Shown here: positions 37,852 through 52,740 of the stretch, in pieces | How positions within the stretch are numbered: position 1 is the stretch's first letter | Layout of the letters: each line of letters opens with the position of its first letter | Translations under genes and position numbers: made by a program | Origin: Streptomyces sp. NBC_01485 | GTDB taxonomy: Bacteria; Actinomycetota; Actinomycetes; Streptomycetales; Streptomycetaceae | Assembly (NCBI RefSeq): GCF_036227125.1 | Contig: NZ_CP109435.1 | Coordinates: 5,642,001 to 5,706,000, forward strand | Direction of reading: 5' to 3' | DNA length: 64,000 nucleotides | Notes under the pieces: generated by a model | Databases searched by the model: none | Told to the model about the DNA's origin: nothing | What the model saw: only the letters and a program-made list of their open reading frames with translations

Positions 37852-37856
37852 TCAGC
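37725..37856. repeat. 12-bp degenerate minisatellite, eleven copies
   Basis: Eleven consecutive 12-bp units with consensus GGTCCCGTCACG (variants GGCACCATCACC, GGCTCCGTCACC and others) fill 37725-37856. The last unit overlaps the fumarylacetoacetase stop codon (37852-37854). There is no indel between units. It looks like an array grown from the 3' end of the gene by slippage and then drifted. Confidence 0.85.
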
Positions 37857-39075
37857 CGTCGCTTCGCTCGGCGACCACCCTCCCGCTCACTTCTCCGAGT
37901 CCCACCCGTGCGCCGCCGGGGCCGGGAGCCCATGCCGACAGGGTCACCACGTCGCCGTCCTCCAGGAACGTCCGCTTGCCGTCGGGGAGTTCGAGCGGGT
38001 CACGGCCGTTCCAGGTCAGTTCCAGGAGGGAGCCGCGCTCGTGCGGGTTCGGGCCGCTCACCGTGCCCGAGCCGTACAGGTCGCCGGTGCGCAGGGAGGC
38101 GCCGTTGACGGTGAGGTGGGCGAGTTGCTGGGCGGCCGTCCAGTACATGGTGGAGAAGGGCGGATCGGAGACGACGTGACCGTTGAGCGCGACGGAGATG
38201 CGCAGGTCGTAGCCGGCGGGTTCGGTGGCCGAGTCGTCCAGGTAGGGGAGCAGGGGGTGGGTCCGCTCCGGGGGCGTCACCCGCGCGCTCTCCAGGGCTT
38301 CCAGCGGGGTGACCCAGGCCGACACCGACGTGGCGAACGACTTGGCGAGGAACGGGCCGAGAGGGACGTACTCCCAGGCCTGGAGGTCGCGGGCCGACCA
38401 GTCGTTGAGCAGGCACAGGCCGAAGACGTGTTCGCGGAAGTCGGTCAGCCCGACCGGGTTGCCCTGCCGCGAGGGCACGCCGACCACGAAGCCGACCTCG
38501 GCCTCGATGTCGAGCCGCACGGACGGGCCGAAGACGGGGGCCGGATCGGCGGGCGCCTTGCGCTGGCCCGACGGGCGGACGACGTCCGTGCCGGAGACCA
38601 CGACCGTGCCGGCGCGGCCGTGGTAGCCGATCGGCAGGTGCTTCCAGTTCGGCAGGAGGACGTCCCCGGCGTCCGGGCGGAAGATCGCTCCCGCGTTCCG
38701 GGCGTGGTGCTCGGAGGAGTAGAAGTCGACGTAGTCGGCGACCTCGAACGGGAGGTGCAGGGTCACCGCGGAGAGGGGGTGGAACAGCGGTTCGACGGTG
38801 GGGCGGTGGGCGGGGTCGGTCACCCACTCCGTCAGCGCGCGGCGCACCTGCGACCAGGCCGTACGGCCCGCCGCCAGCAGCGCGTCGAGAGTCGGCGCGG
38901 CGAGCAGCTCGGCGTGCGGCGAGCCGAGCGCGCGGGCCGCCGCGCCCGCGTCGAGGACGTGGTCGCCCAGCCGGACGCCGACGGTCCGCTGCGCGGAGCC
39001 CGCGAGGGAGAACACACCGTACGGAAGGTTGTGCGGACCGAAGGGGTCGCCTTCGGGAAGGTCGAAGGGGGGCAT
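37852..39075 (-). CDS. fahA: Fumarylacetoacetase
   Basis: The enzyme splits 4-fumarylacetoacetate to fumarate and acetoacetate, the last step of tyrosine/phenylalanine catabolism. The 407-residue protein has the two-domain FAH layout: a small N-terminal domain (FDLPEGDPFGPHNLPYGVFS) and the catalytic domain with FYSSEHHARNAG, containing the metal ligand region and catalytic His, then GYHGRAGTVVVSG, IEAEVGFVVG, LLNDWSARDLQAWEY and SGPNPHERGSLLELTWNG. ATG 39075 (MPPFDLPEG) has a GAGAGG-like site. No other homogentisate-pathway genes are nearby. Confidence 0.95.
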   Translation of the reverse strand: MPPFDLPEGDPFGPHNLPYGVFSLAGSAQRTVGVRLGDHVLDAGAAARALGSPHAELLAAPTLDALLAAGRTAWSQVRRALTEWVTDPAHRPTVEPLFHPLSAVTLHLPFEVADYVDFYSSEHHARNAGAIFRPDAGDVLLPNWKHLPIGYHGRAGTVVVSGTDVVRPSGQRKAPADPAPVFGPSVRLDIEAEVGFVVGVPSRQGNPVGLTDFREHVFGLCLLNDWSARDLQAWEYVPLGPFLAKSFATSVSAWVTPLEALESARVTPPERTHPLLPYLDDSATEPAGYDLRISVALNGHVVSDPPFSTMYWTAAQQLAHLTVNGASLRTGDLYGSGTVSGPNPHERGSLLELTWNGRDPLELPDGKRTFLEDGDVVTLSAWAPGPGGARVGLGEVSGRVVAERSDG

Positions 39076-39406
39076 CGGGTACTGCCTCTCTTTCGTGTCG
39101 TTCGGGTCTTTCATACGCTCTTTGGTGCGCTCTTCGGCGCTCGCCATGTCGTGCTCGCCGGACTCCGGGCGGGTGCCGCGCGGGTGCGCCGAGCCGCGCC
39201 ACACGTTACGGCCGACCTCGCGGAGCCGACACGGGGGCAGGACCGGCCAGGCGCTTCGGCCCGCAGCGCTCCGCGTCCGGTTGCTCACCGGAAGTCGTCC
39301 GCCGGCCGGTCCGCAATCTTGACGGAGCGGTGCGAAAGGGGACACTCTGAACGGGTGCTGGAAGGCCTCGGGGAGGGGGCTTTCGCCTGGCACACCTGGG
39401 GGGCGA
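39076..39406. promoter_or_regulatory. Divergent intergenic region, fahA and the glycan cluster
   Basis: This 331-bp region separates fahA from the first gene of the glycan cluster. On the + strand TTGACG at 39319-39324 followed about 18 bp later by CACTCT (39343-39348) is a possible promoter for the aminotransferase gene. No gene or clear operator is visible; several short CGGCC-rich dyads are present, as expected from base composition. Confidence 0.4.
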
Positions 39407-40651
39407 ATGGCCATAGGGGAGGCCGGTCTCGGGTCGGCGCGGCGTGGCTCACGGCCGAAGCGGCTGGAAGCGACGATGCGCGACAGACTCGGCCGGGAAT
39501 GCGTGTACGTGCCGTCGTGCAGATTCGGGCTGTTCGTGGCCTTGCGCCACTGGTGCCCGCCCGGCGGACGCGTGCTGATGTCGCCGGTCAACGACGACGT
39601 GATCTTCTTCGTCGTGCTCGCGGCCGGACTGAGACCGGTGCAGGCGCCGTTGAACCCGCTGGACGCGTCGATCGACGTCGACGCTGTGCCCGACGAGGTG
39701 TGGGGCTCGCTGTCTGGCGTGCTCACGACCAATCTGTACGGCAACCCGGACGACACTCCGCGCCTGCGGGAGAAGTGCGACACGCTGGGCATCCCGTTGT
39801 TCGAGGACGGGGCGCACGCGATCGGCAGCGAGGTGGGCGGCCGGCCGGTCGGGGCCTGGGGCGACGCCTCGGTCTTCAGCCTGTCCAAGCATGTCGGCGC
39901 CAAGGCCGGCGGTTTCCTGGCCTGCGCCGACCCGGGGCTGCGCGAGGCCCTGGAGAAGACCTGCGAGGACCTGCTGCTGCCGGGGCGGTTCACGGCGGAA
40001 CTCGCCTACACCGTCCGGCCGTTCGCGGAAGCGGCCGTGCGGGGGCTGCGGCTGCGGCGGGCGGCCTGGGCCACCATGCGGCTGCTCGGGCTGATGGAGC
40101 GGGAGGAGATCCGGATGCCGCTGCGGCCGGCCGAGCTGGCCCGTGCCGTCGACGCGGCGCCGGACCTCGCCGCGCACGACTCCTGGGTCCGCGTCGACAT
40201 GCACGACTACCGGCTGCGTTCGGGACCGCTGAGAGCGGGCCGTATCGGCCGCCGGCTCGACCGCCTGGACGAGGTGCTGACCGCCTGCCGGGCGGGCACG
40301 GAACTGCTGCTGTCCACACGCTGGGCGCAGCCCGCGGCACCCCGCGCCGACCGCGCCGACCACGTCCAACCCCTGTTCCGGGTCCCCTTGTTCGTCGCCG
40401 ACCGGGAGGCCGCGAGGGCGGCGCTCGCCCGGCGGGGCATCGTCGTCGGGTACCTCTATGACCCGCCGCTGGACGACTACGCGGGTGCCGCCTTCACCGA
40501 CCCGTCGCCCGATCCCGCAGGGGCGCGCTGGTTCGCCCGGCACGCGCTGCCCGTGGATCCGCTGCGGGCCCGGCAGGTCGTCGAGGTGCTCCAGGAATCC
40601 GGCGTACGGCCGGCCGAGGTGCCGGGAGGGCTGGAGCCGACCCGTGGCTGA
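39407..40651 (+). CDS. DegT/DnrJ/EryC1/StrS-family PLP aminotransferase
   Basis: This 414-residue PLP enzyme belongs to the sugar aminotransferase fold. The internal aldimine Lys161 is in VFSLSKHVGAKAGGF and the PLP-contacting Asp134 in LFEDGAHAIGSE; VLTTNLYGNPDDTPRL is the usual preceding strand. The family makes amino sugars from keto-sugar nucleotides. This member diverges from standard ones after residue 200, with an Arg-rich helical region, so the substrate could differ. ATG 39407 follows GGGGGCG. Its end overlaps the flippase start by 8 bp, so the two are coupled, supporting a role in a precursor for an exported glycan. Confidence 0.85.
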   Translation: MAIGEAGLGSARRGSRPKRLEATMRDRLGRECVYVPSCRFGLFVALRHWCPPGGRVLMSPVNDDVIFFVVLAAGLRPVQAPLNPLDASIDVDAVPDEVWGSLSGVLTTNLYGNPDDTPRLREKCDTLGIPLFEDGAHAIGSEVGGRPVGAWGDASVFSLSKHVGAKAGGFLACADPGLREALEKTCEDLLLPGRFTAELAYTVRPFAEAAVRGLRLRRAAWATMRLLGLMEREEIRMPLRPAELARAVDAAPDLAAHDSWVRVDMHDYRLRSGPLRAGRIGRRLDRLDEVLTACRAGTELLLSTRWAQPAAPRADRADHVQPLFRVPLFVADREAARAALARRGIVVGYLYDPPLDDYAGAAFTDPSPDPAGARWFARHALPVDPLRARQVVEVLQESGVRPAEVPGGLEPTRG

Positions 40652-43019
40652 GACCCAGGCCGAGATCCAGGTACCCGAGCCCTCGGCGCCGTCCGCCGGG
40701 ACGGAGGCGGCAGGCCCGGCGCCGGCCGGCAGCGGCCGAGGCTCCGACTCCCTGTTCCGGAACGCCTACTTCCTGATGCTCAGCACGGGCGTCTCCGCCG
40801 TGCTGGGACTGGGCTTCTGGCTGGTGGCCGCGCGCTACTACTCGGAGGAGGCCGTCGGGCAGGGCTCGGCCGCGATCGCGGCGATGCGGCTGCTCGCCAG
40901 CGTCACGGCGACGACGATGATCGGCGCCGTCGTCCGCTTCGTGCCGCGCGCGGGACGGGCCACGGGCTCGCTGGTGTGGCGGGCGTACGCGGCCAGTTCG
41001 GTGGTCGTGGCCGTCGCCGCGTTCGTCTTCCTGCTCACCCTCGATCTGTGGGGGGCGACGTACGCACCGCTCGGCACGACGGCCGCGGGGGCGGTGTTCG
41101 TCGTCGCGTGTGTGGCGTGGGCCCTGCTCACCCTCCAGGACGGGGTGCTCACCGGGCTGCGCAGATCGGGGTGGGTGCCCCTCGGCAACGCGGTGTTCTC
41201 GGTGGGCAAGCTGATCCTGCTGGTCGTCGTCGCGACCGCGCTGCCGGTGCTCGGCATCTTCGTGTCCTGGGCCGTCGCGATCGCGTTCTCGACCCTGCCG
41301 CTGGGCTGGTTGATCTTCCGCAGGCTGATCCCGCGCCAGGCCGCCGCCGACCGCGACCTGGAGCCCCCCGCGCTGCGGGAGATGGGCCGCTTCCTGGCCG
41401 GGGACTCGCTGGGCGCGCTGTTCAGCCTGGCGATGATCAACCTGCTGCCGGTGATGGTCGCGGTCCGCTTCAGCGCGGCGGAGAACGGCTACTTCTACGT
41501 GGCGTACACCGTCGGCGGCACGATGGAGTTCATGGCCATCAACATGGCCTCCTCCCTCACCGCGCACGCCTCGCACGACCCGCGCCGGCTCGCCGACGGA
41601 GTACGCGGGGCGCTGCGCCGGATGGCGCTGCTGCTGGTGCCGGTGGTGCTCGTGCTGGTGCTGTTCGCCCCGCAGATCCTGCTGCCGTTCAACGAGGACT
41701 ACGCCGAGCACGGCACCACCGTGCTGCGGCTGCTGGCCGCGGGGGCGCTGCCCAGGGTCGTGGTCGAGCTGTACATCGGGGTGCTGCGGGTGCAGGGCCG
41801 TACCGGGGTGCTCGCCGCGCTCCAGGGCGCCATGTGCACGCTCGTGCTGGGCGCCGCGGCCGTGCTGTTCGCCCCGGCCGGGATCGCGGGCGCGGGCTGG
41901 GCGGTGCTGCTCAGCATGACCCTGATCGCCGCCGTCTCCGCCGTCGGCCTGCGCTCCGCGTTGCGCCGCAACGACCGCCTGCCCGCAGGACGGTCCGCCG
42001 TCGCCCCGGCCTACGGCACGCGCTGGGCGCGGCTGAACGCCACCGCCGGGTACGGCACGAACTGGGCGCGCCGGGCGGCGTACGAGCGGGAGGGCATCGA
42101 CGAGGACACGGTCACCCTGTTCATAGGGCGTCCCGGGTACGAACGTGAGGCGTTGCAGGCGGACACGCTCGCGCTGATCGTGCGGCCGCACGGGGGCGGT
42201 GGACGGGATGCGGTGGCCGACGAGGAGAGCGTGGCCCACGAGGAGGACGCGGCTCGGAGTGGTGCGGCGGTGCGGTCCTCGTCCGCCCGGGCACGGGCAC
42301 GGGGGCGGTGGGTCGGGGGCGTCCTGTGGGGTCTGCTCGGTGTGGGGACCGCGGTGTTCTGGGCGGCGTTGCGCGAGCTGCCGTGGTCCGACGGGCCGTC
42401 GGCCGATGTGCTGACCGGGCGTCAGTTGCTGGCGGCGCTGCCGCTCACGGCGCTCGTCGCCGGGGGGCTCGTGCTCGTGGTGTTCGTCGGGGCGGTGACG
42501 TTGCGCGCCGCGAGAGACGCGTGGTTGCCGGGGGCTGCGCTGGGGTCCGCGCTGCTCGCCCTGTACGCCGTACCCGTCGCCTTCGGCTGGGAACCGACGC
42601 CGGTCGGTGGGGCGTTGTACGGGAAAGCAGCCCGTTTCCTCGCGGACGGGGTGGGGCTCGACGGGCCCGAGCCGCTGTTGCGGTGGGCGCCGCCGGCCGG
42701 GCAGCTCCTGTGTCTCATACCGCTGTGGCTGCTGCTGGCGCGCGCGGGCCGGCGGCTGACGTGGCCGGGGCGCTGGGGGGTCCTGTACCTCGTCGCGCTG
42801 GGCGACTGGGTGTGGCGGCAGGAGCTCGCGCCGACGGCGCTGCCCCTGTTCGGCGTCCTCGTTCTCGTGCTCGCCCTCGCCACCCTGTCGCTGCGGCTCT
42901 GCGGGAAGGAGAGACGGGCGCAGGACCGGCGGCGAACTGTCAGCGAGGCGGGACGGGCTGGTGGAAGTAGCCGTTCTTCCCCGCCTCGCGGTAACCGTCG
43001 AGACCCGGGCCCGCGTTGA
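40644..43019 (+). CDS. Wzx-like polysaccharide flippase fused to an extra membrane domain
   Basis: The 791-residue protein begins with a hydrophilic Pro/Ala segment, then an oligosaccharide flippase (MOP/Wzx-like) domain with about 12 helices (about 33-450; e.g. FRNAYFLMLSTGVSAVLGLG and ENGYFYVAYTVGGTMEFMA). After a cytoplasmic linker (about 455-550) with the repeated pattern YGT-(R/N)-WAR comes a second membrane domain of about six helices (about 555-755), then a basic tail. Ordinary flippases are 420-520 residues. The extra domain has no motif that I recognise. GTG 40644 overlaps the aminotransferase. The 3' end overlaps the convergent GH26-like gene by 80 bp. Confidence 0.82.
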   Translation: MAETQAEIQVPEPSAPSAGTEAAGPAPAGSGRGSDSLFRNAYFLMLSTGVSAVLGLGFWLVAARYYSEEAVGQGSAAIAAMRLLASVTATTMIGAVVRFVPRAGRATGSLVWRAYAASSVVVAVAAFVFLLTLDLWGATYAPLGTTAAGAVFVVACVAWALLTLQDGVLTGLRRSGWVPLGNAVFSVGKLILLVVVATALPVLGIFVSWAVAIAFSTLPLGWLIFRRLIPRQAAADRDLEPPALREMGRFLAGDSLGALFSLAMINLLPVMVAVRFSAAENGYFYVAYTVGGTMEFMAINMASSLTAHASHDPRRLADGVRGALRRMALLLVPVVLVLVLFAPQILLPFNEDYAEHGTTVLRLLAAGALPRVVVELYIGVLRVQGRTGVLAALQGAMCTLVLGAAAVLFAPAGIAGAGWAVLLSMTLIAAVSAVGLRSALRRNDRLPAGRSAVAPAYGTRWARLNATAGYGTNWARRAAYEREGIDEDTVTLFIGRPGYEREALQADTLALIVRPHGGGGRDAVADEESVAHEEDAARSGAAVRSSSARARARGRWVGGVLWGLLGVGTAVFWAALRELPWSDGPSADVLTGRQLLAALPLTALVAGGLVLVVFVGAVTLRAARDAWLPGAALGSALLALYAVPVAFGWEPTPVGGALYGKAARFLADGVGLDGPEPLLRWAPPAGQLLCLIPLWLLLARAGRRLTWPGRWGVLYLVALGDWVWRQELAPTALPLFGVLVLVLALATLSLRLCGKERRAQDRRRTVSEAGRAGGSSRSSPPRGNRRDPGPR

Positions 43020-44400
43020 CGGTCAGATCGCACGCTGCCTGGTCGGAGGTCGGCCGGTTCCAGTGCACCAGCGCCTTCACGTCGGGGAGCTGCTTCACGG
43101 CGGCGGGGATCTGGGTGTACCAGTCGCGCTGGCGCTGCGGGGCACCGGCGTCGGGCGCGGTGGCGAACTCCGCGAGCATCACGGGCTTGTCGTCGGTGAT
43201 GTTCGCGCGCAGCCACTCGTAGCTGGGCCGCTGGCTGCGCAGGAAGTCCTTCCAGTCGGTGGTGTCGTGGCACTCGTAGTAGTTGTACTGGTCCATGGCG
43301 ATCCAGTCGACGTACGCGTCCCCGGGGTAGAGCGCCTTCATGTCGGCCGCGCTGCCGAGGTAGCCGGAGACGGTCCACACCCACACGACGTTGTCGGCGC
43401 CCAGTTTCCGGAACCGGTCGCGAAGGTGGCGGTACGCCGCGATGAACTCCTTCGGGGTGCCGGCGCCTTCCTTGATGCGGGCGTCGGTCTCCTGGTCGAA
43501 GGAGAGGAAGACACGTTTCCCGTAGGCCTTGATACGCCGGATCTGCGGATCGAGGATCTTCTCGTCGAGTTTTCCGGAGGCGATGTTCTTCCAGCCGAGC
43601 TGGGTCTCCGTCCAGTTCTCGTGGTGCGGCTCGGTCCAGACGGTGGACTCCCAGGCCAGCATGAGCAGCCGGTCCTTGCCGAGGTCTACTTCGTCGGGGG
43701 TGAGCAGTTCTCCGTCGAGCTCGGTGCCGGACATGTCGTGGTAGTTGTAGACGAGGTCGAGCCTGCGGCCGATCCGCTTCTCGAAGCCGAGGACGGCGTC
43801 CTTGAGCGAGCCGTTCCCTGCGTACGGCACGGCGGCGCCCCACCAGGCGCCGCAGGGCGGAACCAGCGAGCCGGTCGGGGCGCAGGGACCGGTGGGCAGC
43901 TCGCCCGAGGCGGCGTTGTCGGGCAGGGCGTCCGTGGCGGACTCCGGGTCCTCGGAGCGGCCGGCCCAGATGCCGATCCCGGCGAGCAACGCGGCCACCG
44001 CCACGAGTACGACAGCCGTGCAGGAGCGCCGCCTTACACCCCTCGTCCTGTCCCGCACGTCGCCGTCGCCCTTCATGCCGCCCCCCGTGGCAGCGCCCCC
44101 TGTGGCACGACCACCCGTGGCGCCACTCCCTGTGCCGCTGCCCGTATCGCCCTCCACGTCGTCAGTCATGGCACGGCCAGTGCCGCCGTTCCCCTTACCG
44201 CCACGCATGGAAACCCCCGTGCCGTTCCCCGTATCGCCTGTATCGCCCGTACCACTCGCATCGCCCTTATCGCGCCTCACGGGACGGCTCCCCGTGTCCG
44301 TCCCGCCGCCCGGCTTCGACGGCTCGTGTGGCCCGCGCAGCCCGTCCCGGTTCCGGTTCTGGGTCCAGGTCCTGTTCCGGAAGCGGTGGCGTCCCGTCAT
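42940..44400 (-). CDS. Membrane-anchored GH26-like glycoside hydrolase
   Basis: The 486-residue protein has a long low-complexity N-terminus (1-115; Gly, Thr, Asp, Arg with GDTGDTGNG-type repeats), one membrane helix (about 127-146) and an extracellular (beta/alpha)8-like domain. The domain matches GH26: PCGAWWGAAVPY, acid/base Glu in FLSFDQETDARI, VWVWTVSGYLG, YVDWIAMDQYNYYECHD and nucleophile Glu in KPVMLAEFAT. GH26 enzymes cleave beta-mannan or mixed beta-glucans. ATG 44400 forms an ATGA overlap with the upstream gene's stop; later ATGs (44208, 44169, 44076) would drop the low-complexity part. It would trim or release the glycan made by its neighbours. Confidence 0.85.
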   Translation of the reverse strand: MTGRHRFRNRTWTQNRNRDGLRGPHEPSKPGGGTDTGSRPVRRDKGDASGTGDTGDTGNGTGVSMRGGKGNGGTGRAMTDDVEGDTGSGTGSGATGGRATGGAATGGGMKGDGDVRDRTRGVRRRSCTAVVLVAVAALLAGIGIWAGRSEDPESATDALPDNAASGELPTGPCAPTGSLVPPCGAWWGAAVPYAGNGSLKDAVLGFEKRIGRRLDLVYNYHDMSGTELDGELLTPDEVDLGKDRLLMLAWESTVWTEPHHENWTETQLGWKNIASGKLDEKILDPQIRRIKAYGKRVFLSFDQETDARIKEGAGTPKEFIAAYRHLRDRFRKLGADNVVWVWTVSGYLGSAADMKALYPGDAYVDWIAMDQYNYYECHDTTDWKDFLRSQRPSYEWLRANITDDKPVMLAEFATAPDAGAPQRQRDWYTQIPAAVKQLPDVKALVHWNRPTSDQAACDLTVNAGPGLDGYREAGKNGYFHQPVPPR

Positions 44401-44942
44401 GTGGTGCTGCCGGCGGAGGGCCTGCGTTTGGGCTTGGTGCGTTCGAGGGCGCCGCGTCGTGCGGCGGGCAGGGGCAGGCCCGGCAGGGCCGCGGTGATCG
44501 TCGTGAAACCGGCGAGTGAGACGAGGAAGACGGTCATCGAGAAGCCCTTCACCAGGAACAGCGAGGTGGCGGTGAGCACGCCGAGCGAGAGGCTGATGGG
44601 CGCGGCGAGCGCGACGGCCTCCAGCCGGGCGCCGGCGGCCAGCGCGCCCGGCTGCGGATACAGCGCCGCGCAGCCCGGGCCGAACAGGACGAAGAGCAGT
44701 ACCGGGATCCAGCGCAGCGGAGCGGGGCCGGGCACGGTGGTGGCGGCCAGTGCCAGCCAGCCCGAGACCGCGACGAGCACTCTGCGGACTCTGCGGACTC
44801 TGAGCACTCTGCGGGCTCTGAGGTGAGTCGAGGCGATCCCGGTGCCCTTGGACTGGTCGGCCCGGTCGGCATGGTTGGCCCGGTCGGCCCGGTATGCCTC
44901 GGCGGTGGTGTTCGTCGGTTCGGTCGCTTCGTGGTCGGTCAT
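44397..44942 (-). CDS. Small polytopic membrane protein of the glycan cluster
   Basis: The 181-residue protein has a charged N-terminus (1-45) with short repeats (RADRANHADRADQ; RRVLRVRRVRRVLV), then three or four membrane helices (about 48-145) and a basic tail ending KPKRRPSAGSTT. I do not recognise the family. The arginine-rich segment is encoded by a 9-bp DNA repeat (CTCTGCGGA) near 44778-44820. ATG 44942 has AAGGTG at good spacing. It lies 25 bp after the glycosyltransferase-like gene and overlaps the GH26-like gene by 4 bp, so it belongs to this operon. It might be a polymerase or export accessory subunit. Confidence 0.7.
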   Translation of the reverse strand: MTDHEATEPTNTTAEAYRADRANHADRADQSKGTGIASTHLRARRVLRVRRVRRVLVAVSGWLALAATTVPGPAPLRWIPVLLFVLFGPGCAALYPQPGALAAGARLEAVALAAPISLSLGVLTATSLFLVKGFSMTVFLVSLAGFTTITAALPGLPLPAARRGALERTKPKRRPSAGSTT

Positions 44943-44967
44943 CGGGCACCTTGTGGTCGGTCATCGA

Positions 44968-46851
44968 TCATCGGGCGGCCGGGCGGTACTCCAGGACGAC
45001 GCCGTAAGGGTGGCTTTCGACGGTCCGGAAGAGGGGTGAGGCGGTCAGTTTCGACCGCAGGGTCTCGAAGCCGTCGGCGGGCAGCAGGCCCTCGCCGGTG
45101 GCGTAGATGTCCTGGGTGCGGGTGAGGACGACGTACGCCTTCGTGCCCGGCGTGATTCCGGCGGCGAGGTAGGCGGCGGGGTCCTTCAGCATCTTCTCGT
45201 TCTCGGGCAGTGCCTGTTCGGCGAAGAACCAGTGTTCGAGGCGGTCGTAGTGGCGGAGCGCCTGCGGGAAGGAACCGGTGGTGGCGAGGATCAGCGAACC
45301 GTCGGGCGCCGCGTCGAGGGCCCTGGTGACCAGCGCGGTCTCCTGGGGCGGCGTGTAGAACATCTGCTCCTTGCCGTAGTACGACGGCAGGAAGCCGGCC
45401 AGCAGCACCAGCAGAACGGCCGGCAGGGCGACGGCCGCGGCCCGGCGCCGTAGCACCCTCGCCCTGCTGCGGTGGGTCCCCGCGACGGCCGGCACGAGCG
45501 CGGCGGCGGCGAAGAAGGCCGCGCCGGGCAGGGCGAACAGGTAGACGCGGAAGAGCATCTCGCCGCCGTAGTCGTTGACGGCGAACAGCGGCACCGGGGC
45601 GACGGACACCAGCAGCAGCGGCAGCGCGCTGCGGGTCAGCCGGCGCCGCAGCACGACGGCGGTCCCGGCGAGGACGGCGATCGCCAGCACCATCGCCACG
45701 TTGGCGGTTCCCGCGAGTTCGGGACCGGGTCCGGTGAGCTGTCCCGCGTAGCCCGCGCGCGAGTTCTCGGTCAGTTCGCCGATCGACTTCCTGATGGTGG
45801 CGAGCGTCTCGACGAACAGCGGCCGCCCCATGGTCAGGTCCCAGGTGAGCATCAGCAGCGCGGCGACGACCAGCAGCCCGTAGTTGCGGTAGCGGCGCGT
45901 GAAACTGAGCGCGAGCAGACAGATGGTGAGCATCACCGGGGTGAGCTGGTGCGTGGCGTTGACGGCGGCGATCAGCGGGGCCAGGATCACCACGCAGACC
46001 GCGCGCTGCCTGCTGCCCGTCGGCGGCGGGACGGGGGCGGCCACGGGGTCGAGGTAGGTGCGGTCCCGTAGCCGCCCTGCCGAGCCGGGCCGCACGAAGT
46101 GCCGCAGCACCACCGCGAGCACCGTCAGATGCAGCAGGTACGCGAGTGCCTGCGGGGCGAAGTAGTCCTGGCCCACCCAGTTGGCGAGCTGGAAGATCCA
46201 CACGGCGGTCCAGATCAGCCGCCAGTCCTCGCAGAAGGTGCGGTAGATCAGGACGAGCACCGGGATCATGAGCAGGCCGACGACGATGGGCGCCCAGTTG
46301 GCGTACGCGGCGGCGCTCTCCACGCCGAACGCGCGCACCAGGCCCGCGTTGAGCGTGAAGAAGCCCGGCCACTGGTCGTACGCCGACATGTTGCCCGACA
46401 ACGCCGCACCCGGCCGCAACTCACCGTTGGCGAGCAGCGTGTTGACGATGGCGTCGTGCTTGGAGGCCCACGGGTAGCGCACCGCGTCGTACAGCACCGC
46501 CGGGGGCGCCTTGAGCGCGAACAGCAGCGCGGCACAGTGCGCGGCAGGCCACCAGGGCGCCGTGCCCGCGCGCCGCAGACTGAGGACGAAGCCCGCGGTG
46601 AGGACCAGCAACGACAGGTAGTAGGCGGCCGGGAGCCGGTCCAGCAGGCCGTAGTCGCCCATCTCCCGGAAGCCGATGCGGGGCAGCGCGTACACCCACA
46701 GCCCGGCGGCGAGCAGCAGCGTCAGCAGGGCGGCGTCCGGCGGGCGGCGCGGGATCCGCCACGGTCTGCGTCGTTCACCGCCGGTGGTCGGCGGCGCAGG
46801 GGCGGGTAGCTCGCTGCTCTCGGTGGTCGGTACAGGCACATGCTGCTGCAC
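44968..46851 (-). CDS. Polytopic membrane protein, probable GT-C type glycosyltransferase or polymerase
   Basis: The 627-residue protein has about 12-13 membrane helices after a Pro/Thr-rich N-terminus, and a soluble C-terminal domain of about 120 residues (from about 505, LPSYYGKEQMFYTPPQET onward). The first extracellular loop (about 140-175: KHDAIVNTLLANGEL and NMSAYDQWPGFFTLNAG) has acidic and aromatic residues placed as in GT-C enzymes, which use lipid-linked sugars outside the membrane. A Wzy-like polymerase is the alternative. ATG 46851 lies 130 bp after the deacetylase stop, so it may have its own promoter. Confidence 0.72.
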   Translation of the reverse strand: MQQHVPVPTTESSELPAPAPPTTGGERRRPWRIPRRPPDAALLTLLLAAGLWVYALPRIGFREMGDYGLLDRLPAAYYLSLLVLTAGFVLSLRRAGTAPWWPAAHCAALLFALKAPPAVLYDAVRYPWASKHDAIVNTLLANGELRPGAALSGNMSAYDQWPGFFTLNAGLVRAFGVESAAAYANWAPIVVGLLMIPVLVLIYRTFCEDWRLIWTAVWIFQLANWVGQDYFAPQALAYLLHLTVLAVVLRHFVRPGSAGRLRDRTYLDPVAAPVPPPTGSRQRAVCVVILAPLIAAVNATHQLTPVMLTICLLALSFTRRYRNYGLLVVAALLMLTWDLTMGRPLFVETLATIRKSIGELTENSRAGYAGQLTGPGPELAGTANVAMVLAIAVLAGTAVVLRRRLTRSALPLLLVSVAPVPLFAVNDYGGEMLFRVYLFALPGAAFFAAAALVPAVAGTHRSRARVLRRRAAAVALPAVLLVLLAGFLPSYYGKEQMFYTPPQETALVTRALDAAPDGSLILATTGSFPQALRHYDRLEHWFFAEQALPENEKMLKDPAAYLAAGITPGTKAYVVLTRTQDIYATGEGLLPADGFETLRSKLTASPLFRTVESHPYGVVLEYRPAAR

Positions 46852-46981
46852 GCTGAAGCTCCCCTCCCCCAGGTCAACTATAGGAATTTCGTCGCCTTTT
46901 CACACCAAAATCGTCAAAGCCTCCTCCGTGACGGCCACACCTCGTCGCCCCTGGCCTCTGCCCTCGCCCTCGCCCTCGGGC

Positions 46982-47830
46982 TCAGCCGGCGAAGAGCGGC
47001 CCCCGGACGACGGCGCGGGCGTGGCGGTACCACCGCCAGCCGACCGTCCTCGGCCCGTCGCGATACGGGGCGATCCGGGCGCCGGAACCCGTCAGCCAGC
47101 CCTCGACGTCGGCGACGGTGTGGCTGCGGCGCACGATGAGCCGGGCGATGCGGTAGCGCTCGTCGCGGTCCGAACTCAGCGCGTGCCGCACGGCGGTGGC
47201 CGTCTCGTAGCCCGCGGCGGCCGCCATCCGCCGTACCCGACCGCTGTTGTAGCCGTGCGGATAGGCGAGGTGGCGGACGAGGTGGCCGAGGGCGTCCTCC
47301 AACACCGAGCGGGACGCCCGCAGTTCGTGCGCGAGCGCCCGGGGCGCGAGGGTGTCCAACTGCGCGTGGGTGACCGTGTGGCTGCCGATCTCCATGCCGT
47401 ACTGCTCCAGCCGCGCCGCCTGCTGCAACGTCATCATCGGCGCGGGCGGCAGCAGACTGCGCCCGCCCGGGGCGATGGCGCCGGTCGTGAGATAGGCGGT
47501 GGCGGACAGCCCGCGCCCGGCCAGCGCCTCGGCGGTCGCACCCGGCAGGTCGGCGAAACCGTCGTCGAAGGTGAGCAGCACCGGCCGGGACGGCAACGGC
47601 GCCCGCCCCGCGAGGTGGTCGGCGAGCGCGCTGATCGTGACGGGCGTGCGTCCGCTGTCGACGACGGCGTCCAGATGCTCGCCGAACTGCTTCGGACTGA
47701 CGGTGAACTCGGCGATCCAGTCCGGCGGATCCTCCATCACGGCGTGGTACAGGAACACCGGGATGCTGTCCCCTCGGTCCCTCCTGTCCCCTCCATCCCC
47801 CCTGTTCTCTCTGTGCGCGGACGCCGTCAT
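46982..47830 (-). CDS. Polysaccharide deacetylase (CE4/NodB family)
   Basis: The 282-residue protein is a CE4 deacetylase with metal-binding TFDDGFAD (about 104-111), SHTVTH (His pair, about 150-155) and the catalytic-barrel strand HLAYPHGYNS. FLYHAVMEDPP at the start is typical of the YadE/PgaB-like branch. No signal peptide or membrane helix is apparent, so it may act inside the cell on lipid-linked intermediates, or be exported by another route. It is coupled to the upstream GT2 by a 4-bp overlap. Confidence 0.9.
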   Translation of the reverse strand: MTASAHRENRGDGGDRRDRGDSIPVFLYHAVMEDPPDWIAEFTVSPKQFGEHLDAVVDSGRTPVTISALADHLAGRAPLPSRPVLLTFDDGFADLPGATAEALAGRGLSATAYLTTGAIAPGGRSLLPPAPMMTLQQAARLEQYGMEIGSHTVTHAQLDTLAPRALAHELRASRSVLEDALGHLVRHLAYPHGYNSGRVRRMAAAAGYETATAVRHALSSDRDERYRIARLIVRRSHTVADVEGWLTGSGARIAPYRDGPRTVGWRWYRHARAVVRGPLFAG

Positions 47831-49275
47831 CGCGCCGTCCCCCGTTCCTGCTGCGCCGGCCGCAGTCGCAGCGCGCGCCGGGCGCGCAAATACCCCACCG
47901 GCCCATAGAGCATGCCGCGCCGCTGGAGCCGGGACAGCCGCCCGGGCCAGGCGTGCGCCCGGTCGTCGTGCCCGCCGGGCGCGCCCCCCGCACGCGCCTC
48001 CGCCCCGGCTCCCGCCCCCACGCCTCGGGCCTCCGCTTCCCGACTCGCCGTCAGCCTTCGCGCGTACGCCAGTCCCCTGGGCAGTCGGGCCAGGAACGCG
48101 GGCAGCAGGCCGGGGCGGTTGACGAGGATCGCGGTGAGGTAGGCGGTGAGGCCGGCGCCGTAGCCGTACGCCTGGGTCTCCAGGTCCTGCCAGGTCTCCC
48201 GGTGGTGGTGCCAGACCAGCGCGTGCGGGGTGTAGTGCAGCCGGTGGCCCTCGGCGAGGACGCGGACGAACCCGTAGAGGTCGTCGCCGCCCCGCGCGCG
48301 CGTGCCCGCACCCGTCGCCGGGTCGAAGCCGCCGACCGCCCGCAGCACCTCCGTACGGAAGGCCATGCTCGCGCCGGAGCCGAAGCGGCCCGCGGTGAAG
48401 GGGAACAGCGGCTCGTCGGCGGGCGGGTCCAGTGGGTCGTACGTGCGTGCCGTGAAGCCCTTGGCGAAACCGCCGTGGCTCTCCAGGAGGACCTGGGCGG
48501 GCGTGCGCAGCCGGGCCGGGAGGATGAGGCCGGTGGCGCAGCCGAGGCGGGGGTCCGCGGTGAAGGGCGCGGTGAGTTCCGTGAGCCAGCGCGGGTCCGC
48601 CACGACGTCGTCGTCCGTGAAGGCGATCACCTCGCCGTGCGCGACCGCGACGCCCCTGTTGTGCGCGACGGCGAGACCGGGCACCGGCTCGGTCACGTAC
48701 CGCACGCGCTCGGCGTACTTGTGCTCGACGAGGTCCCGGGTCGCGTCCGTCACGGGCGCGTTGTCGACGACGACGATCTCGAAGTCCGGGTGGTCCTGGG
48801 CGAGGAGCGAGTCGAGGGCGTGGGCGAGCAGCGCGGCGCGTTCGCGGGTGGCGATCACGACGGTGGTGGACGGTACGGGCGTCGGGCCGGGCGGCGGGTC
48901 GGGTACCGGGTCTGACGTCTGGCCTGGTGCCGGGCCTGGTGGTGGACCGGGCAGGTGGACGGGCCCTGTCGAAGCGTGTCCGCGGGCGGCGAGGCCCACC
49001 AGGAACGTCTTCGGATCGGCGCCCTCCGGTACCTGCGCGAGCAGCGTCCCGACCGGCCGCCCACCCCGCCTGACCAGCACGAACACCGGTCCGTGCGTGA
49101 CGGGCCGGCTGCCCGGACCGGGTCTGAGCACGCCACCCCCGTCCAGACTCCCGTCCAGACCCCCGTCCAGTTCGAGGTCGAGGTCGAGCTCGGCGACCTG
49201 CACCGGCCGGATCTCCAGGAACCTCTGTATCTCCCGCCGTACGGTCTCCTGCTGCACAGCTCTTGCGCGGAACAT
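47827..49275 (-). CDS. Family 2 glycosyltransferase
   Basis: The 482-residue protein has an N-terminal region of about 110 residues with EVRR-type helical and acidic segments, a Pro-rich linker (about 115-150), and a GT2 domain: TTVVIATRERAALLAHALDS, FEIVVVDNAP, the DxD-type motif AFTDDDVVADP, and RGGDDLYGFVRVLAEGHRLHY. It lacks membrane helices and the Q-x-x-R-W motif, so it is probably a single-addition enzyme. The C-terminal tail is basic. ATG 49275 follows AAGGGGGG; an upstream in-frame extension lacks such a site. The next gene on this strand ends 41 bp upstream. Confidence 0.9.
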   Translation of the reverse strand: MFRARAVQQETVRREIQRFLEIRPVQVAELDLDLELDGGLDGSLDGGGVLRPGPGSRPVTHGPVFVLVRRGGRPVGTLLAQVPEGADPKTFLVGLAARGHASTGPVHLPGPPPGPAPGQTSDPVPDPPPGPTPVPSTTVVIATRERAALLAHALDSLLAQDHPDFEIVVVDNAPVTDATRDLVEHKYAERVRYVTEPVPGLAVAHNRGVAVAHGEVIAFTDDDVVADPRWLTELTAPFTADPRLGCATGLILPARLRTPAQVLLESHGGFAKGFTARTYDPLDPPADEPLFPFTAGRFGSGASMAFRTEVLRAVGGFDPATGAGTRARGGDDLYGFVRVLAEGHRLHYTPHALVWHHHRETWQDLETQAYGYGAGLTAYLTAILVNRPGLLPAFLARLPRGLAYARRLTASREAEARGVGAGAGAEARAGGAPGGHDDRAHAWPGRLSRLQRRGMLYGPVGYLRARRALRLRPAQQERGTAR

Positions 49276-49316
49276 GAACCCCCCTTGTCTCATGACCGTG
49301 CCGACCGGCGATCCCG

Positions 49317-50453
49317 TCACGGCCGGCGCAGGCGGCCCGCGCCCTTCAGCGTCCGTGCGGCCGCCGCGGCGAGCCCCGGCCGGTTGCGCACGAAGTGGTG
49401 CGCGCGGCGGGACGGTTCGCGGCTGAGCCAGTAGAGCGCGGCGCCCGCCCCCGGACGGGTCCACGCCCCCTCGTACACGGGGATCTCCCCTGTCTTCAGC
49501 GAGTCCTTGTACTCGGCCGCGCCCCGCCCCAGGTCGAGCAGGCCGATGCCCTCGGCGGCGGCCGACTCGGCCATCCGCAGATGCAGCACCAGGCCGGGCG
49601 AGAACTTCGCGAACTCCGGTTCGTACGACGGGAACCAGCAGGCCAGGACGGTCGACGAACGCAGTCCGAAGTGCGCGGCGATCGGCTGCTCACCGGCGTA
49701 CAGGACGGACAGTGTGCCGGCGCACTCCGGCGCGCGCGTCTCGGCGAGCGCCGCCACGAGCCGGGTGATCCACTCCTGGGCGAACCGGTCCCGGCGGCCG
49801 GTCCTGCGGTACTGCCCGGACTTCCACGCCATGAGCGTGCGCAGCGCGGCCGGGTCGCGTTCGTCGAACACGAACCGCAGCTCCCCGACCTGACGGCCGA
49901 GCTTGCGCTCCTTGGCGAGCGTCGTCTTCAGGAACTTCGGCGACTGGGCGCGCAGTACCGACTCGTAGGTCTCGTAACCCTTTTCGACGTCGATGACATA
50001 GGAGGTGTACTCCTCGGCCGCGTGCGGGACGAACAGCCCTTGTTCCGCCTCCAGGTTGTCGAAGGCGAAGCTCGACAGCGAGCACGCCCGCATCAGTTCG
50101 GCGGCGTTCAGCCCGAGACCCGGGGCCAGCACCGCGCCCTGCGCGTCCGAGACGCCGTACGCGAGGGCCTGGCCCTGGCCGAGCCGGCCCCGCTCATGGG
50201 GCAGGAAGCCGACCGGCTCACGCCCCTCGTACACCACCGCCACCCGCGCGCGGGGCCGCACGAGCCCCACGGCGTCGGTGAACTCCGGTTCCATGAAGGG
50301 GTTTCGCGGAAGCGTCGACGCGGCACGCAGCGCGCGCCACCGCTCCCTCTCCCCCTCGCCGAGGTCTTCCGGCCTCAGCACACGAATGCGCCCACTGCTC
50401 AACCTGACCCCCCGATCAAGTCCCCCCTGGACACCTGGACGGTACCGCTCCAT
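49317..50453 (-). CDS. CelD/BcsL-type GNAT acyltransferase
   Basis: The 378-residue protein has two GNAT-like halves of the Acetyltransf_6 (CelD/BcsL) group, related in fold to FemAB. Visible features are RNPFMEPEFTDAVG, VVYEGREPVGFLPHERG, SPKFLKTTLAKERKLGR and the C-terminal acyl-CoA or substrate region GLLDLGRGAAEYKDSLKTGE. Members are frequent in polysaccharide loci and acylate sugars or transfer amino acids. It is the first gene of the leftward glycan operon. ATG 50453 is used here, but its ribosome site is poor; a TTG at about 50402 behind GGGGGTCAGG is a serious alternative. Confidence 0.87.
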   Translation of the reverse strand: MERYRPGVQGGLDRGVRLSSGRIRVLRPEDLGEGERERWRALRAASTLPRNPFMEPEFTDAVGLVRPRARVAVVYEGREPVGFLPHERGRLGQGQALAYGVSDAQGAVLAPGLGLNAAELMRACSLSSFAFDNLEAEQGLFVPHAAEEYTSYVIDVEKGYETYESVLRAQSPKFLKTTLAKERKLGRQVGELRFVFDERDPAALRTLMAWKSGQYRRTGRRDRFAQEWITRLVAALAETRAPECAGTLSVLYAGEQPIAAHFGLRSSTVLACWFPSYEPEFAKFSPGLVLHLRMAESAAAEGIGLLDLGRGAAEYKDSLKTGEIPVYEGAWTRPGAGAALYWLSREPSRRAHHFVRNRPGLAAAAARTLKGAGRLRRP

Positions 50454-50639: not shown

Positions 50640-51542
50640 ATGGCCGCACCCACCGCATATGCCGCACGCACCCGGTACTCCCCGTACTCCCTCATCGCCA
50701 CCGACCTGGACGGAACGCTGCTCCGCGGCGACGACACCTTCTCCGACCGGTCGCTCGACGCGCTCGCGCGGGTGGCGCACGCGGGCGCACGCCACCTCGT
50801 GGTGACGGGCCGGCCGGCCCCGCGGGTACGACCGCTGCTCGACCGCCTGCACAGCAGGGGGCTCGCGGTGTGCGGACAGGGCGCGCAGTTGTACGACGCC
50901 GGCGCGGACCGTCTGCTGTGGTCGGTCACCCTGGACCGGGAACTGGCGGAGACCGCGCTCGGCAAGATCGAGGCGGAGGTGGGGCAGCTGTACGCGGCCG
51001 TCGACCAGGACGGCGTCGACGGGCTGACGCTCATCGAGCCGGGCTACCGGATGCCGCACCCGACCCTGCCCGCCCTGCGCGTCGAGCGGCGCGACGACCT
51101 GTGGTGCGAGCCGATCAGCAAGGTGCTGCTGCGCCATCCCACCCTGTCCGACGACGAGTTGGCGGCGACGGCCCGCTCGGCGGTCGGCTCGCTCGCCACG
51201 GTGACCATGTCGGGTCCCGGCACGGTCGAGTTGCAGCCCTGCGGGATCACCAAGGCGACGGGCCTGGCGCTGGCGGCCGAACACCTGGGCCTGCGGGCCG
51301 AGGACACCATCGCCTTCGGGGACATGCCCAACGACATCCCGATGTTCGACTGGGCCGCGCGCGGAGTCGCGATGGCCAACGCCCACCCCGAACTCAAGGC
51401 GGTGGCCGACGAGGTGACGACGTCGAACGAGGACGACGGCGTGGCCGTCGTCCTCGAAAGACTGTTTCCGCAGGACCCCGTTGGACCCTCTAGGACCCGT
51501 AGTACCCGTGGACCCCTAGAGACTGACCTCAACGCCCCGTAA
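50640..51542 (+). CDS. HAD-superfamily phosphatase (Cof type)
   Basis: The 300-residue protein has the HAD motifs: I, LIATDLDGTLL; II, HLVVTGRPAPR; III, the Lys in GITKATGLALAAEHLG; and IV, AFGDMPNDIPMFDWA. The cap between motifs II and III is of the Cof (C2b) type. Such enzymes dephosphorylate sugar phosphates, flavin intermediates and similar metabolites; the substrate cannot be predicted. The C-terminal 20 residues (RTRSTRGPLETD) are encoded by short repeats. ATG 50640 (MAAPTAYAAR) is the likely start. The stop is 10 bp from the convergent transglycosylase gene. Confidence 0.92.
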   Translation: MAAPTAYAARTRYSPYSLIATDLDGTLLRGDDTFSDRSLDALARVAHAGARHLVVTGRPAPRVRPLLDRLHSRGLAVCGQGAQLYDAGADRLLWSVTLDRELAETALGKIEAEVGQLYAAVDQDGVDGLTLIEPGYRMPHPTLPALRVERRDDLWCEPISKVLLRHPTLSDDELAATARSAVGSLATVTMSGPGTVELQPCGITKATGLALAAEHLGLRAEDTIAFGDMPNDIPMFDWAARGVAMANAHPELKAVADEVTTSNEDDGVAVVLERLFPQDPVGPSRTRSTRGPLETDLNAP

Positions 51543-52034: not shown

Positions 52035-52047
52035 GACGAAGTTCCTC

Positions 52048-52205
52048 TCCGGCGCCTGCGAGGTGAGCTGTCGGGTTCGGGCGGGAGCTGCCCGGCCGCG
52101 TCCTGACGGACGCGACTTCACCCCGAGCCGTACCGGTATGTCTGAAGCATCCGGTTTGGCGACTTACCTGGTTCCCCCGCTCCTGCCGTGCGGTTCTCTC
52201 GGAGG
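52048..52205 (-). promoter_or_regulatory. ydaO-type cyclic di-AMP riboswitch
   Basis: On the - strand the leader carries the conserved ydaO blocks in order: ACGGCAGGAGCGGGGGAACC (about 52170-52189), CUCGGGGUGAAG (about 52115-52126), GAACCCGACAGCU (about 52067-52079) and CACCUCGCAGGCG (about 52053-52065). A variable GC-rich stem (52087-52110) fits the usual extra helix. The last block ends about 16 nt before the ATG, close to the ribosome site. In streptomycetes this class binds c-di-AMP and switches off wall-hydrolase genes such as rpfA. The 5' boundary is approximate. Confidence 0.92.
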
Positions 52206-52209
52206 GTGA

Positions 52210-52740
52210 CGGGCGGCGGCAGGATTCGGCGTTCCGCCCGACAGGTCGGGAACGTATGCGACGGCACATGTCCGGAACAAGTGGCGAATTCACAGATCAA
52301 CCCTATTGACCTCTGTCTGTGGCCTATGGGGTGCTTGATCCTTTGTGTGCGCAAAGCGCCAACTTGCTTGGGGTTGCGGGGGATGCGGGGGATCGGCGGG
52401 GTTGCGGGCCGGAGCCGGGTCGCCGTGGCGAGTGAGCCAACTCACCGACGTTCGCAAGAGTGGCAAATCGGACATTAATCCGAACTCGTACCGAAAGGAA
52501 CGTCGAGGGGCTGGGTGTGTCGGTAACCGACATAAATCATTACTTCTGGGTAACTCTATAAATATCTGTTCATACGTACTGATCAGAAACATAACGGGCG
52601 TGATCCGATACCGCCGGGCCTGTAACCGTGGGGGCTATCGGTGATCGAAACGTGACCGGATACGCTGACTTGAGTGGTGGCAGAGACCTATCGACAAACC
52701 GCGTAATCGCCAGTGGACACCAGCAGACAGGAGACCCCTC
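52210..52740. promoter_or_regulatory. Divergent region with an AT-rich island before the polyprenyl synthase gene
   Basis: No gene is visible in these 530 bp. The left end holds the promoter of the riboswitch transcript. From 52519 to about 52600 the DNA is unusually AT-rich for this genome, with the dyad GTCGGT-A-ACCGAC (52519-52531), repeated GGTAAC, and TATAAATA at 52557-52564, a possible promoter. TACGCT at about 52662 may be the -10 of the polyprenyl synthase. The island could be an operator region or foreign DNA remnant. Confidence 0.5.

Follow-up and report, generated by a model that had tools for sequence, protein, structure and literature searches.

A candidate surface-glycan locus of Streptomyces with an exchangeable GT-C, DUF1616-like and GH26 core

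The DNA considered here, called the window below, is a stretch of 64,000 nucleotides from Streptomyces sp. NBC_01485 (contig NZ_CP109435.1, positions 5,642,001 to 5,706,000; the genome has 9.17 Mb in two contigs), and its positions 39407-50453 hold an eight-gene locus between fahA and a gene of the HAD family, in which two plus-strand genes converge on six minus-strand genes. Three adjoining genes of this locus, encoding a membrane glycosyltransferase of predicted GT-C fold, a small DUF1616-like membrane protein and a GH26 glycosidase, form a block that has been exchanged between two deep types at one chromosomal site, within a frame of five other genes. We consider that the locus is probably a Wzx-type system for the assembly of a surface glycan, built of a constant frame and an exchangeable core, with the GT-C protein in the place of Wzy.

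Exchange of the cassette at the fahA-HAD site

As a basis for comparison, we collected 64 loci, the window included, that combine the five frame genes (aminotransferase, flippase, CE4 deacetylase, GT2 glycosyltransferase and acyltransferase) with a GT-C gene, the aminotransferase and the acyltransferase being more than 60% identical. In 20 of these loci the GT-C gene runs opposite to the aminotransferase gene, as it does in the window, and its product is 66-100% identical to that of the window (type A); in the other 44 it runs in the same direction and the product is 36-44% identical (type B). Orientation and GT-C type go together without exception among the 64 loci, and this constancy of direction points to replacement of entire cassettes, not to inversion in place. 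Both types are found at the fahA-HAD site, where both flanks were seen for 11 loci of type A and 36 of type B, and a single flank for 5 more of type B. Carriers of type B include S. coeruleorubidus ATCC 13740 and S. viridochromogenes DSM 40736.

The trees of frame and core disagree. Using three frame genes, we generated a tree by a quick method (1045 columns, 60 loci after four duplicate contigs had been dropped), on which the 10 window-type loci of the site require 5 changes, at least 4 of them forced by well supported branches, against 1 change on the GT-C tree; a single clade for the window type is rejected by the approximately unbiased test (p-AU 5e-71). On the complete frame tree, 7 changes are required for the two types taken together. 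A tree made from fahA and HAD agrees with the frame tree, as the window type again needs 5 changes, at least 4 of them forced.

The same conflict is visible in blocks of 60 residues. Against two type-B loci (L186 and L187 in our numbering) the window is 77-96% identical in the aminotransferase and 26-58% in GT-C, while against six distant type-A loci the values are 68-87% and 65-96%. Residues 181-240 of CE4 are 94% identical to type B and 73% to type A, and the GT2 and acyltransferase blocks are also nearer to L186 and L187 than to distant type A. By contrast, residues 61-120 of GT-C are 34% identical to type B and 96% to type A, and residues 241-300 of GH26 47% and 90%. The right border of the cassette lies between GT-C and CE4.

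The 52 rows of GH26 show the same division, with 11 in one type and 41 in the other. When both types are pooled, GT-C distances and GH26 distances have a correlation of 0.99, whereas with the frame genes the values are 0.42-0.53; the aminotransferase, CE4, GT2 and acyltransferase correlate with one another at 0.89-0.93, and the flippase with these four at 0.77-0.82. Within a type, however, correlations of 0.75-0.97 hold among all genes, and the idea that GT-C and GH26 co-evolve in a special way inside the types was therefore rejected. Pfam shows no integrase or transposase among the eight proteins, and recombination between the conserved frame genes would be the simplest route of exchange.

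The occupancy of the site was surveyed with the HAD protein, which has a match in 100 of 101 genomes of the genus; 60 of these places were fetched. In the 36 places where HAD is 76-96% identical, the locus is present in 5 (L074, L084, L089, L090, L105), fahA and HAD lie within 1.5 kb of each other in 17 (three of them with a small open reading frame, ORF, called in between), and other genes occupy the interval in 13, in 11 cases a pair of about 400-450 codons each; the last one (L086) is a stretch without fahA that has none of the locus genes. One such pair (L088, 1712-4316) consists of a pyridine-nucleotide oxidoreductase and a protein without Pfam match. The locus occurs in none of the other 24 places: 9 are empty, 4 have other content and 11 are stretches without fahA, some of which may have a HAD match that is not orthologous. 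In the nearest empty relative (L075, HAD 96% identical) 355 bp separate the fahA and HAD matches, and presence against emptiness takes 5 changes on the fahA and HAD tree (75 loci, 62 counted). According to this survey, the locus is gained and lost at this site, which accepts other inserts too.

Composition, folds and recurrence of the locus

The sequence-only reading of this DNA, made from the letters and their open reading frames, had described the eight genes with their positions and convergent arrangement, and gene calls and Pfam bear it out (Table 1); the enzyme roles that it proposed hold as families, by Pfam, folds and motifs. Of the ATGA overlaps and short gaps from which it deduced coordinated expression, part is borne out: GT2 and CE4 (47827-47830) and the small protein and GH26 (44397-44400) do overlap by 4 bp in this manner, and gaps of 23 bp (acyltransferase to GT2) and 25 bp (GT-C to small protein) are short, but the aminotransferase and flippase genes overlap by 8 bp with a GTG start, the same 8 bp being called in L040, L041 and L084, and CE4 and GT-C are 130 bp apart. 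It had placed the locus as inserted or lineage-specific, which agrees with fahA and HAD adjoining in close relatives. What it had not seen is the mosaic nature of the locus with its exchangeable centre, the DUF1616-like character of the small protein, and that initiating transferase, Wzy and Wzz are not among the eight genes.

Table 1. Features of the locus and of its insertion site, in window positions
Feature	Position	Strand	Basis
fahA (fumarylacetoacetase), left site edge	37852..39204	-	PF01557 123.1 bits
DegT/DnrJ/EryC1-type sugar aminotransferase, frame gene	39407..40651	+	PF01041 71.3 bits (cut-off 19.8)
WzxE-like flippase, frame gene	40644..43019	+	below Pfam cut-off; fold match
Exchangeable cassette GT-C / small protein / GH26	42940..46851	-	two types in one frame and site; discordant trees
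GH26 glycosidase, cassette	42940..44400	-	PF02156 25.7 bits (cut-off 20.2)
Small membrane protein, DUF1616-like family, cassette	44397..44942	-	family-wide PF07760 matches
GT-C-fold membrane glycosyltransferase, candidate polymerase/ligase, cassette	44968..46851	-	fold; no Pfam family
CE4 polysaccharide/oligosaccharide deacetylase, frame gene	46982..47830	-	PF01522 75 bits (cut-off 23.1)
GT2 glycosyltransferase, frame gene	47827..49293	-	PF00535 84.2 bits (cut-off 23.3)
PF13480 (Acetyltransf_6) acyltransferase, frame gene	49317..50453	-	PF13480 136.5 bits (cut-off 22)
HAD-family hydrolase, right site edge	50640..51542	+	PF08282 161.5 bits

At the junction of cassette and frame, the convergent flippase and GH26 genes overlap in their 3' ends over 80 bp (42940-43019). 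The GH26 start codon may be at 44400 or further in, and relatives suggest 50381 as the acyltransferase start. Genes were called with our own caller, scored by codon usage, which missed the GH26 genes of the window, L139, L140 and L141, later recovered by tblastn, and GH26 counts that come from the caller are therefore low. None of the eight genes contains a TTA codon, a promoter and terminator scan gave no excess over shuffles, and a repeat scan (run with no control) gave short imperfect repeats only.

Pfam cut-offs are passed by the DegT, Polysacc_deac_1, Glycos_transf_2, Acetyltransf_6 and Glyco_hydro_26 proteins. Lys161 of the aminotransferase, which we take to be the place of the pyridoxal phosphate lysine, is conserved in all 68 aligned relatives. 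In CE4 both Asp of TFDDG are kept in 109 of 110 aligned sequences and both His of HTxxH in 107; in GT2, where about 140 residues precede the domain, each D of DDD is kept in at least 105 of 107. The GH26 protein aligns by phmmer (2e-18) with a PDB entry named 'Endoglucanase H', and the two aligned Glu, presumably the catalytic pair, are invariant in 11 of 11 aligned sequences; its N-terminus, judged by eye, is a membrane segment. The acyltransferase is 70-97% identical to 8 relatives and has no PDB relative by phmmer up to E 1. Naming of DegT, CE4, GT2 and the flippase by NCBIfam was dropped, as all matches fell far below the cut-offs, and no sugar is therefore named from them; likewise CE4 is not assigned as an HfsH equivalog (NF050820), having 37.2 bits for a cut-off of 400.

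The polytopic protein has a GT-C fold in its AlphaFold model, built from 43 sequences (mean predicted local distance difference test score, pLDDT, of 86), in agreement with the sequence-only reading. Foldseek places AftA first (1.8e-7), followed by ArnT (6.8e-7) and AglB (8.1e-7), and VIA-align gives Z values of 21.6 for STT3, 21.2 for AglB, 17.2 for AftA, 17.0 for PglB and 16.2 for ArnT. The window member has no Pfam match, and a scan of the whole family gave weak matches to unrelated families only (best E 0.061). K131, H132, D229, H301, E431 and R435 are among the residues invariant in the 43 members and, going by the order of the helices, would sit in loops outside the membrane. In the family of the small protein, 28 of 37 aligned members match PF07760 (DUF1616) at E up to 1, the best at 2.8e-7. 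The flippase misses the cut-off of Pfam Polysacc_synt (24.3 bits, cut-off 28.2), yet its AlphaFold model (pLDDT 73, with a disordered linker at about 447-541 and then a C-terminal helical extension) has WzxE as best Foldseek match (9g9n, with E 1.2e-7 and a template modelling score by target of 0.71; 0.71-0.77 for WzxE), ahead of MATE and MurJ, and this model points to a Wzx-type flippase.

A GT-C relative is present in 40 of 81 genomes of the family. All eight proteins were searched in 40 stretches around GT-C relatives (up to 20 kb each) and in the window, and relatives of the flippase were found in 39 of these 41 stretches, GT2 in 39, CE4 in 38, the small protein in 12, the acyltransferase in 11, GH26 in 9 and the aminotransferase in 5; by these counts GT-C is regularly accompanied by flippase, GT2 and CE4, and loci with the complete set of eight are a subset. 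In named genomes at least 577 stretches were found to encode GT-C relatives, and the best 80 of those were kept, a sample that leans to the kin of the window since the best matches were chosen: Streptomyces, Streptacidiphilus, Kitasatospora, Actinospica, Nonomuraea, Microtetraspora, Streptosporangium, Planomonospora, Rhizohabitans, Spongiactinospora, Rhodococcus and Mycolicibacterium are among them. Within 10 kb at most, these 80 carry GT2 (73), flippase (72), CE4 (71), acyltransferase (65), aminotransferase (63) and GH26 (63), so that in this sample the genes cluster; independent scattering in relatives, which would have counted against the sequence-only reading, is not what they show. The small protein was found by tblastn in 32 of the best 80, and, judged by position, 73 of 79 named loci have a plus-strand gene of 110-260 codons no more than 500 bp after GT-C. 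All eight relatives occur together in distant actinobacteria, for example in L160, L193 and L200, and on this evidence the eight genes form a system, beyond chance neighbourhood.

Fusions of GT-C were found in 23 of 120 stretches, as GT2-GT-C (17), flippase-GT2-GT-C (3) and flippase-GT-C (3), all without internal stops; one contig is counted twice (L044 is L165), and the counts are lower bounds, since overlapping matches of flippase and GT-C were left out. The GT2 fused to GT-C is about 28-38% identical to the GT2 of the window and represents a second kind, which is not in the window locus. Among the fusions are single ORFs for flippase, GT2 and GT-C in Rhodococcus sp. CH91 (L182, 6497-11746, 1749 codons) and Mycolicibacterium elephantis (L194, 6629-11740, 1703 codons), both followed by small-protein and CE4 genes. 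In L145 and L147 the small-protein and flippase genes meet directly.

Beside the insertion site, the window has a c-di-AMP (cyclic di-adenosine monophosphate) riboswitch at 52038-52241 on the minus strand (RF00379, 58.8 bits, gathering threshold 38); the gene just downstream of it (51552-52034/52121) is small and, by eye, resembles a secreted transglycosylase.

A proposed pathway and its alternatives

We infer from sequence every reaction of the following pathway, as well as its polymer and the control of linkage or surface type by the block. A lipid-linked sugar would be started by an enzyme encoded elsewhere, for which the sole PF02397 transferase of the genome (C1:3386983, 2.3 Mb from the locus) is a candidate, and extended in the cytoplasm by GT2, with an amino sugar supplied by the aminotransferase. 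CE4 would remove an N-acetyl group and the PF13480 enzyme would add another acyl group to the freed amine. The WzxE-like flippase would then turn the lipid-linked oligosaccharide outward, where GT-C and its DUF1616-like partner may polymerise it or pass it to an acceptor, replacing a classical Wzy, and the anchored GH26 may cut the chain for trimming or release. None of the eight locus proteins matches in Pfam an initiating sugar-phosphate transferase, Wzy or Wzz. A PF02397 protein is found in each of 12 checked genomes that carry the system, and no Wzz (PF02706) is matched in the genome of the window by a search that was positive in 8 of 14 control genomes.

Several observations weigh against this reading. 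The genome has two PF04932 (Wzy_C) proteins outside the locus, one about 0.6 kb from the PF02397 gene (G000:C1:3386983-3388624) and one elsewhere, and either could serve this locus. The nearest VIA-align matches of the GT-C model are oligosaccharyltransferases, which transfer whole glycans to proteins, and for this reason GT-C is put forward as a candidate polymerase only. The small protein of the window has itself no DUF1616 match, and 5 of the 9 window-type loci away from the fahA-HAD site (L145-L149), like L142, have no GH26 relative that was detected, so that GH26 would be a dispensable accessory. The left border of the cassette is less sharp, as the flippase leans to GT-C: from its residue 421 onward, type A is marginally the closer to the window (for example 58%, against 52% for type B), and among window-type loci the correlation of the flippase is 0.92 with GT-C and 0.79 with the aminotransferase. 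The correlation of GT-C with GH26 comes from the split into two types, and their bond is one of shared exchange, not of special joint drift. Finally, in the part of the source available for the imp cluster compared below, the mutant lacking the whole cluster releases spores like the wild type (PMC12691653).

The VIA-align ranking, together with the absence of Wzy from the locus and of PF02706 from the genome, could also mean that the edited and flipped oligosaccharide is passed only once, by a GT-C enzyme of oligosaccharyltransferase kind, to surface proteins or a wall polymer, with no repeat polymer and with trimming by GH26. The WWD motif is the mark of the oligosaccharyltransferases STT3, PglB and AglB; the window GT-C protein does not contain this string, Foldseek ranks AftA and ArnT before any of them, and a GH26 enzyme would suit a polymer better. 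We hold this single transfer to be unlikely.

As to what moved, the conflict of topologies is by itself silent on which part did so. Two old paralogous loci lost differently, or a movement of frame and flanks around a centre that stayed, would be compatible with the unsharp left border and with the occurrence of both types away from the fahA-HAD site (9 of type A and 3 of type B among the 64). But the two types share that very site, the window is near type B in its aminotransferase and near type A in its GT-C, and the fahA and HAD tree scatters the window type as well, which makes an unmoved centre quite improbable.

Least probable, and very doubtful in our view, is a decoration system in which the flippase exports a monosaccharide lipid and GT-C adds single lipid-phosphate-linked sugars to a wall polymer (multi-component transmembrane glycosylation), since, although the AftA and ArnT folds and the 17 GT2-GT-C fusions recall the pairing of a polyprenyl-phosphate-sugar synthase with a GT-C enzyme, the class of GT2 that is fused elsewhere is not in the window locus and the flippase is WzxE/MATE-like by fold, whereas such systems use small GtrA-type flippases according to the part of PMC13390465 available.

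Returning to the Wzx-type assembly system with GT-C in the place of Wzy, a bolder extension, which we put forward tentatively and hold to be possible rather than probable, is that GT-C and its DUF1616-like partner make up a new class of polymerase for lipid-linked oligosaccharides that replaces Wzy in many actinobacteria and has a GH26 enzyme of its own, and that the exchange of cassettes switches the polymer type, as a two-allele 'serotype' system of Streptomyces surfaces kept by phages, predators or neighbours. Nothing specific on Streptomyces phage receptors was found in the literature searched.

Comparison with described systems

Streptomyces surface glycans are poorly known. The locus had been thought to have no clear counterpart, a view that does not hold given the at least 577 stretches with GT-C relatives and the logic shared with the imp, wps-1 and wps-3 clusters of Actinoplanes. 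We found no published account of the window cluster among open-licence papers, and in the same literature no paper that treats DUF1616 together with a glycosyltransferase and a polysaccharide. We regard the locus as a distinct variant: actinobacterial and Wzx-type, with a Pfam-less GT-C protein, a DUF1616-like partner and GH26, in a cassette that is exchanged between two deep forms and may be the polymer-determining part. The locus is well defined, occurs widely and offers two natural alleles at a single site, and the role of the putative polymerase-hydrolase module can therefore be asked by swapping cassettes between close species. The GT-C family and its partner, with GT-C fused in places to flippase and GT2, are a candidate substitute for Wzy, and DUF1616 gains a testable setting.

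The imp and wps clusters of Actinoplanes missouriensis were likened to the window locus by domain content and descriptions, as given in the available parts of the cited papers, to which the statements that follow are limited. The imp cluster makes the sporangium matrix polysaccharide, and ImpE is proposed as its Wzy (PMC12691653). It resembles the window locus in its Wzx-type ImpC, GT-C-like ImpE (Alg6_Alg8 superfamily), five-helix domainless ImpD and GT2 ImpG, and next to it lies gimB, which encodes a GH5 glycosidase; it differs in having three GT4 proteins, GH5 rather than GH26, and seven genes without CE4, DegT or PF13480 (PMC12691653). All imp single-gene mutants have misshapen sporangia, and those of impD and impE release only about 10^2 spores (PMC12691653).

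The wps-1 cluster unites GT2, GH26 (WpsE) and Wzx, and to the knowledge of its authors no Wzx/Wzy cluster with GH26 had been characterised before (PMC13390465); in the open-licence literature, it is the one published case of GH26 in a Wzx cluster that we found. Unlike the window locus it has an O-antigen-ligase-like Wzy, Wzz, GT26, two sulfotransferases and a methyltransferase, and CE4, DegT and PF13480 are not among the domains given for it (PMC13390465). The wps-3 cluster brings together CE4, a DegT aminotransferase, a BioF2-like acyltransferase and Wzx, but also GT4, Wzy, Wzz, a monooxygenase and a dioxygenase, with no GH26 given; a sporangial role was concluded for wps-1 and gsf, not for wps-3 (PMC13390465).

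The proposed sequence of CE4 and then PF13480 editing would mirror what is suggested, in the parts of the papers available, for the Caulobacter holdfast, where the CE4 enzyme HfsH and the GNAT (GCN5-related N-acetyltransferase) acyltransferase HfsK modify a lipid-assembled and flipped glycan (PMC5362036, PMC8449245) and HfsK may acylate the amines freed by HfsH (PMC5362036). The holdfast differs in being a Gram-negative adhesin, with HfsK under c-di-GMP (cyclic di-guanosine monophosphate) control and hfsK outside the core locus (PMC5362036, PMC8449245), and in Hirschia baltica the deletion of hfsK was without effect (PMC8449245). No GT-C, GH26 or DegT protein is named in the parts of the two papers available.

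The swapping of cassettes resembles capsule-type switching of bacteria. In capsule loci, constant genes flank an exchangeable centre that holds the polymerase. At the fixed site of the pneumococcal cps locus, a hot spot of recombination according to the part of the source available, different surface polymers arise, as may happen with the exchangeable core here; that locus belongs to another phylum and relies on another class of polymerase, whereas the window system has two deep types only, and its cassette holds a glycosidase and has opposite orientations in the two types.

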